A stretch of 64,000 bases of DNA, taken from Haloarcula litorea (GTDB taxonomy: Archaea; Halobacteriota; Halobacteria; Halobacteriales; Haloarculaceae). The stretch spans positions 124,001 to 188,000 of the forward strand of contig NZ_CP119780.1 of assembly GCF_029338195.1 (NCBI RefSeq). The letters are read 5' to 3'. The notes under the pieces were generated by a model that ran no database searches, had not been told where the DNA came from, and worked only from the letters and a program-made list of their open reading frames with translations. Within the stretch, counting starts at the first letter, position 1. The number at the start of each line of letters is the position of its first letter. Of the stretch, positions 45,907 to 55,660 are shown in pieces. Both the position numbers and the translations under genes were made by a program.

Positions 45907-47316
45907 ATGTCGGGAGTCAACAGGCGCAACTTTATGAAGTTCGCCGGAGGGGCTATGGCCAGTGCAGCGCTGGCAGGCTGCTCTGGGGACGGCAACGATG
46001 GCGGTAACGGAGGAAACGGCGGCGGAAACGGTAGCACCGACGGTGACGGTACGAGCGGGGGCTCGGGCGGTATGCAAGACGGAACTCGCCCGCTGAAGTG
46101 GATGGGGCCGGCGTGGGGCGTCCGCGGCGGACAGGGTGACAAGTACACAGAGGTCACCGGTATCGAGACCAGTATCACCAACGCCGCGATCCCCGAGACG
46201 ACGCGTCGGATTCTGAGCGGGGGGCGGTCGAACTTCGACATCGTCTCGAACGACAGCCCTGGTGGATCGGCGATGGTACTGGACAACGACGCGACGTACG
46301 CTGTGTCTCCCTCCGACCTCGATCGGTGGGAGTCGGAGTACATCTCCGATTTCTTCACGAACCCGGTCGAGCGCGTCTCGTACCTGGACGGACAGGCCGA
46401 GGCGATGAACGAGCTGATCTACGAGGATCCGGAGACGATGGAGGACCTCCGCTGGCCGCCGTACGTCTATGCGTTCGACGGGCCGGCGTACAACCCCAAG
46501 CACATCGACGAAGTGAGCGAGTGGTCGGCGCTCTTCGCAGACGAGTACCAGGGCCGGGTTGCCCTTGACGCGATCCCGACGGTGGTGATGGGGGAGACCG
46601 TCCTCCACCTCTTCGACAACGATATGATCGACATCGAACGCGGGAACCTCAACAACCCGAGCAAGGACCAGATCGACACGATCATCGACTTCCTCATCAA
46701 GGAGAAGCAGGAAGGACAGTTCCGATCGACGTGGACCTCGTACGGCGAGTCGGTGACACTGATGGCGTCCGAGGAGGCGTGGATCGGTGACCTCTACCGA
46801 CCGGCCTGTATCGACGTCCGCAGAGAGGGGACCCCGTGCGAGTACGCGAATATGACCGAGGGCGTTCAGGGATATCGGTCGTGGTTCGGCGGTATGGCGC
46901 CACTGAAGCCGGGCGCTAACGAGCGGAACAACGTTGCCGAGGCGACTGAACTCCTCGATATGCACTACGGTGCGTGGTTCCCCGGCTTCATCCAGCAGTG
47001 GGAGTACTGTGTCCCCCACTACCCCAACACCGATCTCGTCCGTGACGGTTCGGACGAGACGGGACAGGGTATGGGGCCGGAATACTACGACTGGGCGTAT
47101 CGAGGAGAGCGAACGTACGAATCCGTCGAACAGCCGGCACTGTTCGACCCGATGGAGTACGACTGGTCGATGGAAGAGAGCGATCCGTCACCCGACGGGC
47201 AGAAGCGCGACGGGCCGGATATCGAGACTCGAATCGATTCGATCGGATTCATCCAGAAGTACCCTGACAACGCCGAGTATATGAACGAACGTTGGGCTGA
47301 CTTCGAGTCTGCCTGA
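45907..47316 (+). CDS. Tat-exported lipoprotein, ABC solute-binding protein
   Basis: The 469-residue protein starts MSGVNRRNFMKFAGGAMASA, a twin-arginine signal, and then has a lipobox LAGC (Cys25). A Gly/Asn-rich linker follows, as in haloarchaeal lipoproteins. The mature part resembles the PotD/spermidine-putrescine and iron(III)-type binding proteins (DIVSNDSPGGSAMVLDNDAT, YGESVTLMASEEAWIGDLYR). It captures the solute for the two permeases at 49294 and 52577. Ligand unknown. The chaperonin paralogue on the other strand separates it from the rest of the operon. Confidence 0.85.
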   Translation: MSGVNRRNFMKFAGGAMASAALAGCSGDGNDGGNGGNGGGNGSTDGDGTSGGSGGMQDGTRPLKWMGPAWGVRGGQGDKYTEVTGIETSITNAAIPETTRRILSGGRSNFDIVSNDSPGGSAMVLDNDATYAVSPSDLDRWESEYISDFFTNPVERVSYLDGQAEAMNELIYEDPETMEDLRWPPYVYAFDGPAYNPKHIDEVSEWSALFADEYQGRVALDAIPTVVMGETVLHLFDNDMIDIERGNLNNPSKDQIDTIIDFLIKEKQEGQFRSTWTSYGESVTLMASEEAWIGDLYRPACIDVRREGTPCEYANMTEGVQGYRSWFGGMAPLKPGANERNNVAEATELLDMHYGAWFPGFIQQWEYCVPHYPNTDLVRDGSDETGQGMGPEYYDWAYRGERTYESVEQPALFDPMEYDWSMEESDPSPDGQKRDGPDIETRIDSIGFIQKYPDNAEYMNERWADFESA

Positions 47317-47475: not shown

Positions 47476-49209
47476 TCAGTCCCAGCGCGTCTCGTTTTCG
47501 GCGCGGTAATCTTCGTGACGCTCGGCGGCCGCCGGGTGAATCGAATCGTCCGGGGAGTCCGGCACCTCGCTGAACGTCGCGTCGAGACTGTCGTCGATCC
47601 GGAGGACCAGATTCGCTACTTCGGTAGCCTTGTGGTACTGCTGCTCTCGGAGACCGGCCGGATCGAGGACGCCCTGTTGCCACACATCGTCGATCCGGCC
47701 AGGCGGTGCGGCGATCCCGGTCGTCGTCTCTCCGCCGGTGTGTCGCTGCCGGAGTGTCGTCACCGTGTCGATGGGGTTGAGACCGCAATTCGACGCGAGC
47801 GTCCCGACGACTCGCGTGAGTGCGTTCGTGAACGCAGTCAGTGCGAGGCGCTCGCGCGACTTTTCGCCGGCGCTTCGCGATCCGATCCGTCTGCTCACTG
47901 CCATATGCGTCGCCCCGCCGCCTGGGACGACGCCTGCCGGGAGGGTCGTCTCTCCCGCAGCGATGGCGGCGGCGTTCGCCGCCTTCCGTATCTGTGTCGT
48001 CGCCAGCTCACCCCATCGATCGGTCACTCCACGTAGGAGAACAGCGACGGCGTCCGGGTCATCACACCCCTCGAAAAGCACCATCTCGCTCGACCCAGTC
48101 TCGTCACGTCGAGAACCGACCGTCTGTTCGGTGACGTGCCCGGCGTGGCCGAGATCCGCTGTAGCGAAGTCTTCCGGGTCTTTCACCAGGGACGCGCCGG
48201 TGGCCGCACAGACCTGTCTGAGGTCAAGCCGAGAGACGTTCCGGATTCCGACGATTCCGAGGTCGGCAAGCATCGCCTGATATTCGGGTGTGATTCCGAG
48301 TCTGGTCACGACGACGTCGGCACCGGTCGACCGAATCTCGGAGATGATCTCCGCACGGTTGTCGCCGAACAGGTCCCGGAAGGCGTCGACGTCGGCGGCC
48401 GATTCCGGGGTGGCGACGTACCGGTCTCCGATCTCCGGGTCCCGAAGACCGCCCCGCTCGTACCCACCGATCGCGAGAACGGTTGCCTCCTCGACCGATC
48501 GTGGCATCCGGAAGTCTACCACCGAGTTCGCATCGAGGACCGCGCCCTTCACGAGTCGCGAGTCGTCGATAGCGCCGTCGCTCGTCTGTCGCACTGCTAA
48601 TGTTCGCTCGTCGGGTGCACCGACCGTCCGAACGGCATCTACGGCGAATCGAGCCCACGTGTCCGCTTTGCCACCGATGTCGTTACCGGTGATACTGGTA
48701 CGAGCACAGGCGTGTAGTCCGTCCCCAGAATATTCGGAGACCGATCGACGCAGGTCGTCGACAGCCTCGCGTGCACAGGTGCGTGCCTTGTCGTATCCAC
48801 GCGTGACCGTTCGCGGATGGAGTCCCTTGTCCAGGAGCGCCTGTGCTTCCCTCAGGAGCGCGTTCGCAAAGACGAGCGTCGTCGTCACCCCGTCGGGGAT
48901 GTCCTCTCCGTCGATGTCCGTCTCTCCCGGGCGACGGGGTCCCGCGATGTCGCGGGCTATCTCGGCGATGGGATGCTCCAGCGGCAGCAGCTCGAGGATC
49001 GTGGCACCGTCGCTGGTCACCTCGTAATCAGGGGCGTCGGACACCACGGACGTATCGTCCCCGGTACTGACTAGGAGTTTGTCCCTCGGCGTCGGTCCGA
49101 GCGTCGACTGGACCGTTCCTGTGATGTGCCGGATCCCCGCGATATTCGCTTCGGGGAACGATATCTCGTCTCGTTCGTCTTCGGGCTCCTGCAGATCTCC
49201 GACTGTCAT
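47476..49209 (-). CDS. Divergent thermosome (group II chaperonin) paralogue
   Basis: The 577-residue protein follows the thermosome throughout: ITGTVQSTLGPTPRDKLLV, VTSDGATILELLPLEHPIAE, PDGVTTTLVFANALL and GVVPGGGATHMAVSRRI. The ending is ASNCGLNPIDTVTTLRQRHT then TGIAAPPGRIDD. Changes: the usual GDGTTT is PDGVTTT. The HDAL-type stretch with the hydrolytic Asp (GroEL Asp398 equivalent) reads ATTQIRKAAN, and GGGAxE is GGGATH. ATP hydrolysis is probably weak or lost. It lies convergent to the solute-binding gene and divergent from the permease gene. ATG 49209 preferred to 49215. Confidence 0.8.
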   Translation of the reverse strand: MTVGDLQEPEDERDEISFPEANIAGIRHITGTVQSTLGPTPRDKLLVSTGDDTSVVSDAPDYEVTSDGATILELLPLEHPIAEIARDIAGPRRPGETDIDGEDIPDGVTTTLVFANALLREAQALLDKGLHPRTVTRGYDKARTCAREAVDDLRRSVSEYSGDGLHACARTSITGNDIGGKADTWARFAVDAVRTVGAPDERTLAVRQTSDGAIDDSRLVKGAVLDANSVVDFRMPRSVEEATVLAIGGYERGGLRDPEIGDRYVATPESAADVDAFRDLFGDNRAEIISEIRSTGADVVVTRLGITPEYQAMLADLGIVGIRNVSRLDLRQVCAATGASLVKDPEDFATADLGHAGHVTEQTVGSRRDETGSSEMVLFEGCDDPDAVAVLLRGVTDRWGELATTQIRKAANAAAIAAGETTLPAGVVPGGGATHMAVSRRIGSRSAGEKSRERLALTAFTNALTRVVGTLASNCGLNPIDTVTTLRQRHTGGETTTGIAAPPGRIDDVWQQGVLDPAGLREQQYHKATEVANLVLRIDDSLDATFSEVPDSPDDSIHPAAAERHEDYRAENETRWD

Positions 49210-49263
49210 ATACACGACAACCGATCGCTCTCGGTAAAGAAACTTTCCCCCTCGAGGGTGGGT

Positions 49264-49271
49264 TTTATGTT
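49264..49271 (+). promoter_or_regulatory. Likely TATA element for leaderless permease transcript
   Basis: TTTATGTT in GGGTTTTATGTTC lies about 27 bases before the ATG at 49294, the distance expected for a leaderless haloarchaeal transcript. An earlier ATG (49267) inside this element is therefore unlikely to be used. Confidence 0.4.
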
Positions 49272-49293
49272 CTCCGGCCCGGTGAAACCCAGT

Positions 49294-50133
49294 ATGGCCA
49301 CGAGTTCGGCGAACCGTACCAACGGGTCACTCCTCGAGAGTATGAAACAGGTGACCAGTGCGCGTCGAGTCCTGCTGTTGTACTTCGTGTGTATCACGAT
49401 CTACGTCTACACGCCGATCATCTCGCTGATCGTCTTCTCGTTCAACAGTGGGGGACTCACGTTCCCCTTCACCGACATCACGACCGACTGGTACACACAA
49501 CTGTTCTCGAACACCGCCATCATCGAGTCGATCATCCGGTCGCTGATGCTCGCATCCGTCGTAACCGTCATCACCACCGTCCTCGGAACTGCTGCGGCAC
49601 TCGCCTATCGGTACGACTTCCGTGGGAGGCAGTTGGTCCTGTATCTGCTCATTCTGGGCATTATCACACCCGGCATCACCTACGGGGTCGGTGCGATGCT
49701 CCTCCAGGTGGAACTACTCGGGTTCGAGAAGGGGCTCTGGCTCGCAGTGCCCGTTCACGTCGTCTGGACGCTCCCGTTTGCGGTCATCGTTCTGCTTGCT
49801 GGCTTTCCCCCGACGTTAGCGGAGAACGAACAGGCTGCCTCTGTCCTCGGTGCCGGACGGTGGACGACTATCCGCGAGGTGATTCTTCCACAGATCGCGC
49901 CGACCATTCTCGGGGCCGCCGTGTTCGCCTTCACACTGTCGTACAACGAGGGGACCCGGAGTATCCTCCTACTGGGCTCCGACACGACGATGCCGCTTCA
50001 GGTGTTCTCCATCGCTGGCTCGCAACGTCCGACGCCGATGCTGTTCGCCCTCGGGAGCGTGACGACACTCGTCTCGACGCTGCTGTTGGCCGTCGGGGGA
50101 TATCTGGTCCTGAAGGGCTCACAGACGAACTGA
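49294..50133 (+). CDS. ABC transporter permease (PotC-like)
   Basis: From ATG 49294 the protein has 279 residues and six spans. It carries the permease EAA loop in the form EQAASVLGAGRWTTIREVIL near residue 190, which contacts the ATPase. The first span reads YFVCITIYVYTPIISLIVFS, matching the PotC/spermidine-putrescine group. It opens a collinear operon: permease, two ATPases, permease, TIM-barrel protein, Tm-1-like protein. The gap to the first ATPase is 45 bases. Confidence 0.85.
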   Translation: MATSSANRTNGSLLESMKQVTSARRVLLLYFVCITIYVYTPIISLIVFSFNSGGLTFPFTDITTDWYTQLFSNTAIIESIIRSLMLASVVTVITTVLGTAAALAYRYDFRGRQLVLYLLILGIITPGITYGVGAMLLQVELLGFEKGLWLAVPVHVVWTLPFAVIVLLAGFPPTLAENEQAASVLGAGRWTTIREVILPQIAPTILGAAVFAFTLSYNEGTRSILLLGSDTTMPLQVFSIAGSQRPTPMLFALGSVTTLVSTLLLAVGGYLVLKGSQTN

Positions 50134-50178: not shown

Positions 50179-51306
50179 ATGGGCGCACGAAACGTTCGAA
50201 TCGATAGCGTACAGAAGTCGTTCGGTAACGAAACAGTCCTGCGTGACATCACGCTCGAGGTCGAGAGCGGGGCCTTCTGCGTGGTGATGGGGCCGAGTGG
50301 TTGTGGGAAGACGACGCTCCTGAACTGCGTCGCCGGGCTCGTCGACGTCGAGAGAGGTCAGATTCAGTTCGACGGCCGAGACGTCACCGACCAACCGGTC
50401 GCTGAGCGTGACCTCGGCTACGTGTTCCAGGAGTTCGAGGACACGTTGTTCCCGCACAAGACGGTCGCCGAGAACATCGCGTTCGGACTGCGACAGCAGC
50501 AGTCGGAGGTCTCCGAGCCCGAAATCGAGGATCGTGTCGACGAGATGCTCGCACTGTTCAACATCGAAGCGACGAGGGGGAACACTCCCGGAGAACTGAG
50601 TGGTGGCCAACAACAGCGCGTCGAACTCGCCCGACAACTCGTCTGCGAGCGCGACCTTCTCCTGCTCGACGACCCGCTCGCTGACCTCGACTATAAGCTC
50701 CAGAAGCGAATGGAGATCGAGATTCGTCGCCTCCACGAGGACCTCGGTAGCACCTTCCTCTACGTCACACACAACCAGGATCAGGCTCTAAAGCTCGCAG
50801 ACCGTCTCATCGTGATGAACGAGGGGCAGATCGAACAGATCGGCTCACCCGCGGAGGTGTACAACTCGCCGGAATCGGCATTCGTCGCCCGATTCGTCGG
50901 CGACTCGAACGCGCTGGCGGCCTCGGTCCGAAACGCCGACGACAGGTCGGTTACGGTCGATACCGAACTGGGCGAGATCACGGCCGAACCACGGGGACCG
51001 GTCACCGAGGAGACAGGGGTAGTCTTGATCCGGCCGAAGCGGATCACGATCGGAGATGAAGCGTATGATCGCGAGAACACGATCGAGATGACCTATCAGG
51101 GTTCGACCTACACCGGTGAAGTAGTCGAGCACGCCGTACTTCCCGACAGTCTCACGCGCGAGTTCCTGATCGACGAAACGGATCGGGACTACGGCTCTGA
51201 TCCGGGCGAACGCGTCCCCGTCGGGTGGGACGCAGCGGACGCACAGTACTTCGAGACGCTCAGTGCGGCGGACTCTGTCACCGTCGAAGACATCATCCAA
51301 ACGTAA
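50179..51306 (+). CDS. ABC transporter ATP-binding protein 1 (degenerate Walker B)
   Basis: The 375-residue protein has Walker A GPSGCGKTT (38-46), a Q loop VFQEFED, the signature LSGGQQQRVELARQL, and Walker B ending LLLLDDPLADLD. The residue after the Walker B Asp is Asp165, not Glu. The H loop is VTHNQDQAL. A C-terminal regulatory OB domain (TOBE-like) follows at ~245-375. Asp at the catalytic-Glu place usually slows ATP hydrolysis. The second ATPase, one base downstream, has the full Glu but a weak signature, so the two may form a heterodimer with one active site. Confidence 0.9.
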   Translation: MGARNVRIDSVQKSFGNETVLRDITLEVESGAFCVVMGPSGCGKTTLLNCVAGLVDVERGQIQFDGRDVTDQPVAERDLGYVFQEFEDTLFPHKTVAENIAFGLRQQQSEVSEPEIEDRVDEMLALFNIEATRGNTPGELSGGQQQRVELARQLVCERDLLLLDDPLADLDYKLQKRMEIEIRRLHEDLGSTFLYVTHNQDQALKLADRLIVMNEGQIEQIGSPAEVYNSPESAFVARFVGDSNALAASVRNADDRSVTVDTELGEITAEPRGPVTEETGVVLIRPKRITIGDEAYDRENTIEMTYQGSTYTGEVVEHAVLPDSLTREFLIDETDRDYGSDPGERVPVGWDAADAQYFETLSAADSVTVEDIIQT

Positions 51307-51307
51307 T

Positions 51308-52498
51308 ATGCAGTCGAACTCGATCACCGAGACGACGGAGCGTAACGAACGACAACAGGACGACGAGACGATCCTCGAGATCTCCGGGCTCACGAAGGTG
51401 TACCCCGACGGGACGCTGGCGGTCGACGACATCGACTTCTCGGTCGCTCGCGGCGACTTCTGTGTCATCATCGGCCCGTCGGGATGCGGGAAGTCCACGA
51501 CACTCCACTCGATTGTCGGTACCGTCGACCCCACAGAGGGGTCGATCCGGCTGGACGGCGAGGATATCACCGATCTCCCCACCTACCAACGGGATATTAG
51601 CCTGGTGTTCCAAGATTTCCAGCTCTTCCCGCACCTCTCCGTTCGGGGAAATATCCGGTACGGACTGGAGCGAACGGACGTGTCCGGATCACAGATGGCG
51701 AACCGTGTCGAACAGGTCGCCGACGTCCTGAATCTCACCCCGTTTCTGGATGGAAACCCGGAAGAATTGTCTGCGGGCCAGCAACAGCAGGTCGCTCTCG
51801 CGAGGAGCCTCGTGCTAGAACCGAAGCTCCTCTTGCTCGACGAACCGCTCGGCGACCTTGACTACAAGCTCCAGAAGCATATGGAGCGAGAGTTACTCCG
51901 GATCCACCACGAGTTCGACACGACGTTCGTCTACGTGACACACGATCAGAACCAGGCGATGCGGCTGGGTGACCAGCTGGTCGTTATGAACGACGGTGTC
52001 GTTGAGCACTCGGGAACGACCGAAGATGTCTACGACCGGCCCGCAAACGCCTTCGTGTCGACGTTCGTCGGCGACTCGAACACGTTCTCGGGCGAGATCG
52101 TCTCGCTGTCGGACGACGAATCGGTCGCCACTGTCGAGACGGCCTTCGGCACGATCGAATCGACGACCGCGAACCTGAACTCTCCACCGACAGAACTGCT
52201 CGGCGAGGAAGTCACTCTCTCGGTCCGTCCACATCACGTGTCACTCGGACAGGATGATGGCAATACGCTCGACTGTCGGGTGAGTGACGTCATCCATCAC
52301 CCTGCATCCGGAACACAGATCGTAGCTGATGTCCACGGAGAGCAGGGGGAGAAGACGGTGATGGTCAAACTGCTCGACGATATCGCCGATCCGACCGGCG
52401 AGATCACGATCTCTTGGGGCAGATCGGACACAGTGCTCCTCGAAGAGATCAGCAATGTCCCTGGAACCGATCTCGAAACGGATATTCTCGGAGAATGA
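51308..52498 (+). CDS. ABC transporter ATP-binding protein 2 (degenerate signature)
   Basis: From ATG 51308 the protein has 396 residues. Walker A is GPSGCGKST near residue 57 and the Q loop VFQDFQLF. The signature is LSAGQQQQVALARSL, with Ala for the second Gly and Gln for Arg. Walker B is normal: LLLLDEPLGDLD. The H loop is VTHDQNQAM and a TOBE-like tail follows (SVRPHHVSLG). The weak signature faces the other subunit's Walker site in the dimer. It starts one base after ATPase 1, so they are made in equal amounts. Confidence 0.9.
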   Translation: MQSNSITETTERNERQQDDETILEISGLTKVYPDGTLAVDDIDFSVARGDFCVIIGPSGCGKSTTLHSIVGTVDPTEGSIRLDGEDITDLPTYQRDISLVFQDFQLFPHLSVRGNIRYGLERTDVSGSQMANRVEQVADVLNLTPFLDGNPEELSAGQQQQVALARSLVLEPKLLLLDEPLGDLDYKLQKHMERELLRIHHEFDTTFVYVTHDQNQAMRLGDQLVVMNDGVVEHSGTTEDVYDRPANAFVSTFVGDSNTFSGEIVSLSDDESVATVETAFGTIESTTANLNSPPTELLGEEVTLSVRPHHVSLGQDDGNTLDCRVSDVIHHPASGTQIVADVHGEQGEKTVMVKLLDDIADPTGEITISWGRSDTVLLEEISNVPGTDLETDILGE

Positions 52499-52576: not shown

Positions 52577-53479
52577 ATGTCAGCCACAACTGAGGACCAG
52601 TCCGCAGAGAGTGAGTCCCCAGACTGGTTCCCGTTTGCGGTCTCCGAGGCACACCTGCTGACGGGACCGACGGTCCTCTGGTTCGCGGTGTTTCTCGGCG
52701 TTCCGCTCGTCGTCGTGTTCGTCTACAGCTTCCTGACGTACGAATCCTACTCCGTCGTGATGGAGTTCACGCTCAGCAACTGGTTGGGGAGTGCGTTCTC
52801 CGGCACCGTCGCGAGCGTCTTCATCCGGACACTCACAATCGGGATCGTCGTCACGGTCACGTGCTTGCTGGCGGGCTATCCGGTCGCGTACTTCCTGCGC
52901 TTCTACACGTCAGAGAACGGCGGCATTCTGCTGTTGCTCTTCCTTGTCATTCCGTTTTGGACGTCAGCACTCATCCGCACGCTCGCGTGGTTCCCCATCC
53001 TCGGGCGGACCGGGTTCGTCAACTTCCTGTTGGTGGCATCCGGAATCACGAGCGAGCCAGTGTCGTGGCTGCTGTTCTCCCCCTTCTCGCAGCTCGTCGC
53101 GTACCTGCAGAACTACGTCGTCTTTATGACGGCTCCGATCTATATATCTCTCTCACAGATCGACGAAGACCTACTTGGTGCGTCCGAGACACTCCGCGGT
53201 GGACCGCTCGCGACCTTTCGGAACGTCGTCTGGCCGCTGAGCAAGCCCGGCGTGGCGATCGGATCTATCTTCGTCTTCGTGCTCTCGATCGGGAACTTCC
53301 TCATTCCACAGTTCCTCTCCGGTGGACAGGCCACTGTCACGACACTCATCTACTTACGTATCAACAACGGACTCAACTATCCGGTGGCGTCCGCACTCTC
53401 GATCCTGCTGCTCGTCGTTATCTTCATTCCGGTGATGGTCCTCCTCAAGCGAGTCGACATCGCCGACATCGCCCGTTAG
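52577..53479 (+). CDS. ABC transporter permease (PotB-like)
   Basis: The 300-residue protein has a hydrophilic N-terminal 20 residues, six spans and the EAA loop EDLLGASETLRGGPLATFRN. It ends VALSILLLVVIFIPVMVLLK-like with a short charged tail. It pairs with the permease at 49294 and uses the two ATPases. The gap after ATPase 2 is 78 bases. ATG 52577 follows AAAGGAGGAACGT, a clear ribosome-binding-like site. Confidence 0.85.
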   Translation: MSATTEDQSAESESPDWFPFAVSEAHLLTGPTVLWFAVFLGVPLVVVFVYSFLTYESYSVVMEFTLSNWLGSAFSGTVASVFIRTLTIGIVVTVTCLLAGYPVAYFLRFYTSENGGILLLLFLVIPFWTSALIRTLAWFPILGRTGFVNFLLVASGITSEPVSWLLFSPFSQLVAYLQNYVVFMTAPIYISLSQIDEDLLGASETLRGGPLATFRNVVWPLSKPGVAIGSIFVFVLSIGNFLIPQFLSGGQATVTTLIYLRINNGLNYPVASALSILLLVVIFIPVMVLLKRVDIADIAR

Positions 53480-53577: not shown

Positions 53578-54414
53578 ATGAAGTTTCCACGAAGTGAGTC
53601 GCTAGAACGGTTACGCTCGACTGTCGACAGCGGGGAACCGATTATTGGTGCCGGAGCGGGAACCGGTATCTCGGCGAAGTTCGCAGAGCGTGGTGGCGTC
53701 GACTTGTTGATCATCTACAACTCCGGACGGTACCGGATGAACGGTCGCGGATCCCTCGCCGGAATCCTCCCGTACGGTGACGCGAACGAGATCGTCGTCG
53801 AGATGGGCAACGAGGTAATTCCGGTCGTCGAGGACACCCCTGTACTGGCTGGCGTCAACGGAACTGATCCCTTCCGTGAGATGGAGGTGTTTATCGAGGA
53901 CCTCCGTCGGCGAGGGTTCTCCGGCGTCCAGAACTTCCCGACGGTCGGGCTGATCGATGAAGACAGTAGCTTCCGACAGAACCTCGAAGAGACCGGGATG
54001 GGCTACGATAAGGAGATCGAGATGATCCGTGAGGCCAGCGATCAAGGGATGCTGACGTGTCCGTACGTGTTCGATGAGGACCAGGCCCGTGCGATGGCCG
54101 AGGCCGGCGCGGACGTCGTCGTCTCGCATATGGGGCTGACAACTTCGGGTGACATCGGCGCCGAGACGGCGCTAGATCTGGACACCGCCGCCGAACGGGT
54201 CCAGGCGCACCACGACGCCGCCAAGGCGGTCAACGACGACGTGATGGTGATCTGCCACGGGGGGCCGATCGCGTGGCCGGACGACGCCGAGTACGTGCTC
54301 AACAACACAGAGGGGATCGTCGGCTTCTTCGGTGCTTCGAGTATCGAACGCCTGCCGACGGAGGAGGCCATCGAGGGGCAGGCCCGCGAGTTCAAGGAGA
54401 TAGATTTCCGATGA
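53578..54414 (+). CDS. TIM-barrel PEP-hydrolase-like protein (Tm-1 C-terminal half)
   Basis: The 278-residue protein matches PF09370-type TIM barrels: IIGAGAGTGISAKFAERGGV, LLIIYNSGRYRMNGRGSLAG, VLAGVNGTDPFREMEVF and FSGVQNFPTVGLID. The barrel ends with ICHGGPIA and GFFGASSIERLP. The family is annotated as PEP hydrolase-like, but the reaction is not firmly known. In plant Tm-1 the C-terminal domain is of this type and the N-terminal domain is UPF0261; here the second gene is the UPF0261 one. Both may act on the imported compound. ATG 53578. Confidence 0.85.
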   Translation: MKFPRSESLERLRSTVDSGEPIIGAGAGTGISAKFAERGGVDLLIIYNSGRYRMNGRGSLAGILPYGDANEIVVEMGNEVIPVVEDTPVLAGVNGTDPFREMEVFIEDLRRRGFSGVQNFPTVGLIDEDSSFRQNLEETGMGYDKEIEMIREASDQGMLTCPYVFDEDQARAMAEAGADVVVSHMGLTTSGDIGAETALDLDTAAERVQAHHDAAKAVNDDVMVICHGGPIAWPDDAEYVLNNTEGIVGFFGASSIERLPTEEAIEGQAREFKEIDFR

Positions 54415-54442
54415 GCGCGACTCCGATCGGATGTGATCACTG

Positions 54443-55660
54443 ATGAGCGTCGTCATCGTCGGCACTCTCGACACCAAGGGTGAGGAGATCGGTTTCGCGA
54501 GGGACGTGATCGAGGCCCAGGGAATCGATGTCCACTTGATCGATACCGGCGTGATGGACGACCCGGAAATCACGCCCGATACCACCGCTGCCGCTGTCGC
54601 CAGGGCTGCAGGCAGAGATCTCGGATCGCTGCGAGACGCGGGCGACAGGGGCGAGGCCATCGAGGCTATGGGTGAGGGCGCGGCCGAGATCGCGACACGT
54701 CTCCACGAGGAGGACGAACTGGATGGAATCCTCGGTCTCGGCGGGTCTGGGAACACGTCGATCGCGACTGCGGCGATGCGTGCTCTCCCTGTCGGTGTGC
54801 CGAAGTTTATGGTTTCGACCGTCGCCTCCGGTGACACCGAACCGTACGTCGAGTCGAGCGACATCGCGATGATGTACTCCGTGGCCGATATCGAGGGACT
54901 CAATCAACTGTCGCGGACGGTCATCTCGAACGCGGCGCTCGCGGTGGTTGGGATGGTCTCTAACGACCCCGACATCGAGGTCGAAGACAGGCCCACTATC
55001 GCCATCACGATGTTCGGTGTCACGACTCCGTGTGTACAGACCGCCCGTGAGTGGCTCGAAGACCGCGGCTACGAGACCATCGTCTTCCACGCCACCGGAA
55101 CGGGCGGGCGTGCGATGGAGAACCTGATCGAGGAGGGCGTCATCGACGGCGTCCTCGACGTGACGACGACGGAGTGGGCCGATGAACTCGTCGGCGGGGC
55201 CCTCTCCGCGGGCCCACACAGGCTTGAGGCCGCCGCAGAACGAGGGATTCCTCAGGTGGTTTCGACCGGCGCCCTCGATATGGTCAATTTCGGTCCCAGG
55301 GAGACGGTCCCGACAGAGTTCGACGGACGGACGTTCCACATCCACAACCCGCAAGTGACGTTGATGCGGACCACGCCCGAAGAGAACGCCGAGCTCGGAC
55401 GGATCATCGCGGAGAAGCTCAACGCATCGACCGGATCAACTGCGCTCGCACTACCACTCAACGGAGTCTCGATGCTCGACACCGAGGGTGAGGAATTCCA
55501 CGACCCCGACACCGACGCCGCTCTGTTCGAGGCGCTCCGTGAGCATCTCGACGAAGACATCGAACTACTCGAAATCGAGGCGAACATCAACGATGAGACG
55601 TTCGCACTCACACTCGCCGAGAAGATAGACGCCTATATGCAAGCTGAACAGTCTGCTTGA
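54443..55660 (+). CDS. UPF0261 / Tm-1-like ATP-binding domain protein
   Basis: The 405-residue protein has two Rossmann-like lobes of the Tm-1-like domain: VIVGTLDTKGEEIGFARDVI, LDGILGLGGSGNTSIATAAM, FMVSTVASGDTEPYVESSDI and MYSVADIEGLNQLSRTVISN. The second lobe has AITMFGVTTPCVQTARE and VFHATGTGGRAMENLIEEGV. Members bind a nucleotide (tomato Tm-1 inhibits viral replicase), but the cellular reaction is unknown. It ends the transport operon; the TIM-barrel gene ends 28 bases earlier. ATG 54443. Confidence 0.85.
   Translation: MSVVIVGTLDTKGEEIGFARDVIEAQGIDVHLIDTGVMDDPEITPDTTAAAVARAAGRDLGSLRDAGDRGEAIEAMGEGAAEIATRLHEEDELDGILGLGGSGNTSIATAAMRALPVGVPKFMVSTVASGDTEPYVESSDIAMMYSVADIEGLNQLSRTVISNAALAVVGMVSNDPDIEVEDRPTIAITMFGVTTPCVQTAREWLEDRGYETIVFHATGTGGRAMENLIEEGVIDGVLDVTTTEWADELVGGALSAGPHRLEAAAERGIPQVVSTGALDMVNFGPRETVPTEFDGRTFHIHNPQVTLMRTTPEENAELGRIIAEKLNASTGSTALALPLNGVSMLDTEGEEFHDPDTDAALFEALREHLDEDIELLEIEANINDETFALTLAEKIDAYMQAEQSA

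Follow-up and report, generated by a model that had tools for sequence, protein, structure and literature searches.

Within a 64,000-nucleotide stretch of Haloarcula litorea DNA (referred to here as the window), two adjacent genes encode PotA-type ABC ATPases whose catalytic motifs depart from the consensus in a reciprocal manner, raising the question of whether the two proteins act as one pair in which a single ATP site does the work. Arrangements with one sound site are well known in exporters (TAP, CFTR) and rare in PotA-type importers, and the retention of a dead site by so many ABC transporters is an open question which has been examined almost exclusively in exporters. In the present case, reciprocal decay would have set in after a well-understood importer ATPase was duplicated, seemingly not long ago, and the two halves reside on separate genes.

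As listed in Table 1, the ATPase genes are flanked by genes for a binding protein with a Tat signal and for PotC-like and PotB/PotH-like permeases, both with a BPD_transp_1 domain, an arrangement which points to a binding-protein-dependent importer of the PotABCD kind. The binding protein was identified from its Tat signal and from the substrate-binding annotation carried by its orthologues; no Pfam binding-protein family was reached. The reading frame of ATPase 2 is also open from a GTG at 51263, the likely start being the ATG at 51308, one base past the stop codon of ATPase 1.

Table 1. Features of the importer locus, with positions numbered from the first letter of the window.
Feature	Position	Strand	Remark
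ATPase 1, PotA-type ABC ATPase with TOBE_2, 375 aa	50179..51306	+	Degenerate Walker B partner; 23 orthologues
ATPase 1 Walker A GPSGCGKTT, residues 38-46, lysine intact	50290..50316	+	Contributes to degenerate site I
ATPase 1 Q-loop VFQEFEDTLFPH	50422..50457	+	Two residues more than ATPase 2 and E. coli PotA
ATPase 1 signature LSGGQ, residues 140-144	50596..50610	+	Invariant; contributes to sound site II
ATPase 1 Walker B LLLLDDP, residues 160-166	50656..50676	+	
ATPase 1 Asp165 codon, catalytic-Glu position	50671..50673	+	
ATPase 2, PotA/UgpC-type ABC ATPase, 396 aa from ATG 51308	51308..52498	+	
ATPase 2 Walker A GPSGCGKST, residues 56-64	51473..51499	+	Sound site II, invariant
ATPase 2 altered signature LSAGQ, residues 154-158	51767..51781	+	Contributes to degenerate site I
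ATPase 2 Walker B LLLLDEP, residues 174-180, catalytic Glu179	51827..51847	+	Sound site II, invariant
Substrate-binding protein, Tat signal and Cys (probable lipoprotein)	45907..47316	+	Orthologue linked to the ATPase pair at most loci fetched
PotC-like permease	49126..50133	+	Real start probably 3' of 49126
PotB/PotH-like permease	52577..53479	+	
Divergent TCP-1/cpn60 chaperonin paralogue	47476..49215	-	Linked to the importer at 23/23 loci

Both ATPases belong to the PotA/MalK type by their domain order, an ABC_tran domain (PF00005, found in both) being followed by a TOBE domain, with TOBE_2 scoring above the cut-off in ATPase 1 (24.9 vs 21) and slightly under it in ATPase 2 (20.0 vs 21). An AF2 model of ATPase 1 (pLDDT 90.7) has PotA as its best PDB match (8y5f, E=1e-36), followed by MalK (2r6g, E=1e-35), and the sequence matches of both ATPases likewise lead to PotA and MalK as the nearest solved relatives. 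Both proteins fall below the NCBIfam PotA cut-offs, with scores of 310.6 (ATPase 1) and 284.9 (ATPase 2) vs 482 for PRK09452.1 and of 283.7 and 260.4, respectively, vs 355.6 for the potA subfamily; among the families listed, neither passes the curated NCBIfam threshold of any that has a named substrate. The PotA equivalog is a homodimer from a single ATPase gene, in place of which two adjacent paralogous genes are present here, an organization found at all 23 haloarchaeal loci compared.

The motifs of the two proteins differ at a few residues. Besides the Walker motifs given in Table 1, ATPase 1 carries the signature LSGGQQQR (140-147) and the H-loop residue His198, and its Asp165 aligns with the catalytic Glu of E. 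coli PotA (Gln in the 8y5g variant). In ATPase 2, the Glu and the His are intact and the signature reads LSAGQQQQ. The 23 loci with an adjacent pair comprise those of Halorussus salinisoli, Halorientalis pallida, a Salinirussus MAG, 19 other genomes and the window, and permease and binding-protein genes are nearby in most of them. Plasmids of Natronorubrum bangense, Haladaptatus, Halarchaeum and Halobellus limi carry further annotated copies, a number of which are probably the same records. The initial annotation had described an Asp in place of the catalytic Glu beside a normal LSGGQ in ATPase 1, and a normal DEP beside an altered signature in ATPase 2, and had proposed that orthologues be aligned for co-occurrence of the two changes. 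These residues are plain in the sequence and have proved to be fixed across the family: ATPase 1 has Asp and LSGGQQQR in 23/23 cases, ATPase 2 has Glu in 23/23 with LSAGQ in 22 and LSSGQ in one, so that every pair carries both reciprocal changes. Pairs with a canonical Glu and LSGGQ in both subunits were looked for and none was found among the 23. A chance origin is ruled out by the fixation of the two changes across 23 orthologous pairs, and the fact that the orthologues are only 50-61% identical to the window proteins, yet nearly unchanged at these residues, indicates that the residues are held by selection. The last Gln of LSAGQQQQ, usually Arg, is particular to the ATPase 2 of the window, LSAGQKQR being found in most orthologues.

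Other positions have also been altered. Both ATPases carry VTH[N/D]QxQA after the H-loop His, vs the usual VTHxQxEA of other PotA-type proteins, and their D-loops read ADLD or GD[L/M]D in place of a SALD-like sequence; these changes are derived and common to the two proteins. The Q-loop region is the contact of type I ATPases with the coupling helices of the permeases, and it is here that the two ATPases differ in length, ATPase 1 having VFQEFEDTLFPH vs VFQDFQLFPH in ATPase 2. The resulting two-residue insertion is kept in all ATPase 1 orthologues compared and occurs only in ATPase 1, which indicates that the two subunits are not interchangeable; each probably docks on a specific permease.

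With regard to distribution, the DNA pattern of the Asp form (LSGGQ..LDDP) was found in 5 of 194 Halobacteria genomes, where every match is an ATPase 1 orthologue and no other ABC protein shows it, while the Glu form of the signature/Walker B pattern gave 148 matches in 16 genomes. An ATPase 2 orthologue was detected, at the chosen cut-off, in 20 of 391 Halobacteria genomes and 10 of 86 genera, a sporadic occurrence; the genomes listed for the genus to which the window belongs contain none. Matches to the A-form signature other than ATPase 2 belong to a separate, single-gene-like haloarchaeal ABC family (L174-L186) with LSAGEAQR and an intact Glu (..LDEPTSNLDPRNTA). An Ala in the signature is thus compatible with a canonical Walker B, and LSAGQ by itself is weak evidence for this reason. 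Outside the Halobacteria, rhizobial two-ATPase glycerol importers had been considered as a possible case of the same kind and were discarded, no match to the Asp form being present in the 142 genomes searched from the class of Pseudorhizobium (Alphaproteobacteria). The Asp form does occur in 11 of 198 Actinomycetota genomes, in proteins whose Walker A lies near residue 370-395, with LSGGQRQR..LDDPLSALD after it; these resemble exporter half-transporters and were rejected as relatives.

A tree of 113 PotA-type ATPases places the ATPase 1 proteins (22 rows, SH-aLRT 99) and the ATPase 2 proteins (23 rows, SH-aLRT 99) in two clades which are sisters with SH-aLRT 100, and the remaining collected members read DEP and LSGG. 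The simplest history would involve one duplication, followed by a change from Glu to Asp on one stem and from Gly to Ala on the other. As both changes map to stem branches, their co-occurrence constitutes one evolutionary event that has since been kept, not 23 independent ones.

Whether the altered residues meet in one site was assessed by comparing 31 motif positions per composite site across 22 pairs, with one orthologue (L131) left out. Site II comprises the A-loop, Walker A, Q, Walker B and His of ATPase 2 together with the signature and D-loop of ATPase 1, and site I is the converse. Of these positions, none varies in site II, vs 11 of 31 in site I, so that the earlier proposal that both defects fall in the same composite site and leave the other complete has held up. 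Swapping the labels between homologous positions of the two sites (sign-swap) gave p=0.00045, a value to be read in light of the positions having been picked from textbook motifs and of adjacent columns not being independent of each other. ATPase 2 is the more conserved protein overall, yet its own signature and D-loop vary and those of ATPase 1 are invariant, which means that general conservation does not explain the pattern. This is the strongest support obtainable from sequence for a pairing of the two ATPases and for one site mattering more than the other.

The pattern also bears on the alternatives. Two separate homodimers serving the permeases at different times would be in keeping with PotA and MalK being usually homodimeric, as is well established and as their structures appear among the model matches. 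Homodimers would, however, give constraint by subunit, and the constraint observed crosses subunits, in favour of a heterodimer that strictly maintains one of its sites; in a homodimer of ATPase 1, furthermore, both sites would carry Asp, and the pair is adjacent at every locus. This explanation is considered highly improbable. Decay of one gene, with the changes representing drift, is disfavoured and hardly credible: it could account for the additional Arg-to-Gln change in the signature region of the window's ATPase 2 and for orthologue L131 being out of frame in its N-terminal part, but not for altered residues that are nearly invariant at such modest overall identity, nor for the open frames, with Walker A, Q-loop and His intact, of all orthologues but one.

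The remaining alternative accepts the heterodimer and holds that Asp165 and LSAGQ are tolerated, both sites hydrolyse and the asymmetry is merely kinetic. Sites of exporters with Glu replaced by Asp still hydrolyse slowly (PMC7756269), the Lys, Gln and His are kept in site I, the other haloarchaeal family combines LSAGE with an intact Glu, and the E. coli DppD/DppF heterodimer functions with both sites competent (PMC12136057). Against these points, the constraint on site I is measurably weaker than that on site II and the Asp has not reverted across 23 lineages, making two working sites unlikely.

A heterodimer with one hydrolysing site, having arisen from one duplication and reciprocal decay, is the reading that probably describes these ATPases, as judged from their sequences. 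The two proteins would assemble as a 1:1 heterodimer beneath two different permeases, with site II (the Walker A/B of ATPase 2, including Glu179, and the LSGGQ of ATPase 1) binding and hydrolysing ATP and driving the cycle as the one active site. Site I (the Walker A/B of ATPase 1, including Asp165, and the LSAGQ of ATPase 2) would still bind ATP because the Walker A lysine, the Q-loop and the His are retained, and its hydrolysis would be slow or nil. In such a cycle, ATP at both sites would close the dimer and hydrolysis at site II would reset it, site I keeping its ATP mainly as a clamp. A clamp-like retention of ATP at the degenerate site has been described for heterodimeric exporters (PMC7756565) and likewise for TAP (PMC4242082), and a Glu-to-Asp change together with an altered partner signature is a common degenerate-site pattern (PMC7756269). 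On this reading, a canonical homodimer-type ATPase would have been duplicated once in haloarchaea, after which the two halves of one site decayed reciprocally. Site swaps (D165E, A156G), and whether one hydrolysis per import cycle suffices, are testable in this genetically tractable group, with homodimeric relatives available as an ancestral control.

The residues found here match those of human TAP, in which TAP1 has Asp in place of the Glu and TAP2 has LAAGQ. The comparison with TAP made in the initial annotation is also apt in geometry, as its active site II is formed by the TAP2 Walker A/B and the TAP1 C-loop and its site I is degenerate (PMC4242082); in both systems, the Walker motifs of one subunit and the altered C-loop of the other make up the degenerate site, the reverse site being active. 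TAP differs in being an exporter with the NBD fused to the membrane domain, a fusion absent here, where separate ATPases of 375 and 396 aa would serve a binding-protein-dependent importer. TM287/288, TmrAB and BmrCD likewise combine one consensus with one degenerate site at which ATP stays (PMC7756565), but differ in exporter fold and direction. E. coli PotABCD is the closest solved structure by sequence and fold, with PotB/PotC-like permeases in both; its PotA is, however, a homodimer from one gene with Glu and LSGGQ, and the pair described here scores well below the PotA cut-offs. Among importers, DppABCDF also has a heterodimer of two different ATPases, although with both Glu residues present and both sites competent for hydrolysis (PMC12136057). 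RbsA and NupO are importers with one degenerate ATP site (PMC11466899), from which the present pair differs in that their NBDs form a single fused chain, their second Walker A has no lysine and they belong to another importer class. The statement that such asymmetry is unusual in importers stands for the PotA/MalK type as sampled, the cases of RbsA and NupO notwithstanding. The literature on asymmetric type I importers amounted to exporter reviews, the remark on RbsA and NupO, and DppDF; no description was found of an importer of the PotA/MalK type whose two separate ATPases had decayed in this manner, in a search covering subscription papers poorly, so that absence proves little. As degenerate-site importers have already been described, what appears to be new is a TAP-like asymmetry in an importer of the PotA/MalK fold.

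A further property of the locus is the TCP-1/cpn60 paralogue, encoded on the opposite strand between the genes of the binding protein and of the PotC-like permease. It is the fourth such paralogue of the genome and the most divergent one. A chaperonin orthologue (39-46% identical) lies in the cluster or within ~20 kb at each of the 23 loci. The paralogue keeps the DG of the GDGTT motif, has no Asp at the position of the thermosome catalytic Asp and contains the segment RKAxxAVA. It is tentatively suggested, with more doubt than confidence, that the locus may be a self-sufficient import unit of haloarchaea, whose half-degenerate ABC motor would be obligately paired with a chaperonin paralogue without the usual catalytic Asp, for assembly, gating or the substrate pathway.

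In other species, the neighbouring genes (L202-L205 and other loci) encode asparaginase, hydantoinase A/B, M20 hydrolase, LLM (luciferase-like) monooxygenase and isochorismatase, with MmgE/PrpD, creatininase, cytosine deaminase and DUF3830 also present at orthologous loci. These genes hint at amide or N-heterocycle compounds as importer substrates, a lead only. The window has PEP_hydrolase-like and UPF0261 genes instead, which come after the importer (53578-55660) and did not appear in the matches from the orthologous stretches that were fetched; in plant Tm-1-like proteins, these two domains form one fused chain (PMC5028733).

Two observations concern the genomes compared. In genome G323 (L131, L212), both the ATPase 1 gene and the chaperonin gene have an N-terminal portion out of frame with the remainder, which may reflect sequencing error or broken genes. 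On contig C1 of genome G000, ABC matches of equal score form a series at about 5-15 kb and again at 3,269-3,279 kb, with a constant offset of ~3,263.8 kb, suggestive of a circular overlap left untrimmed.
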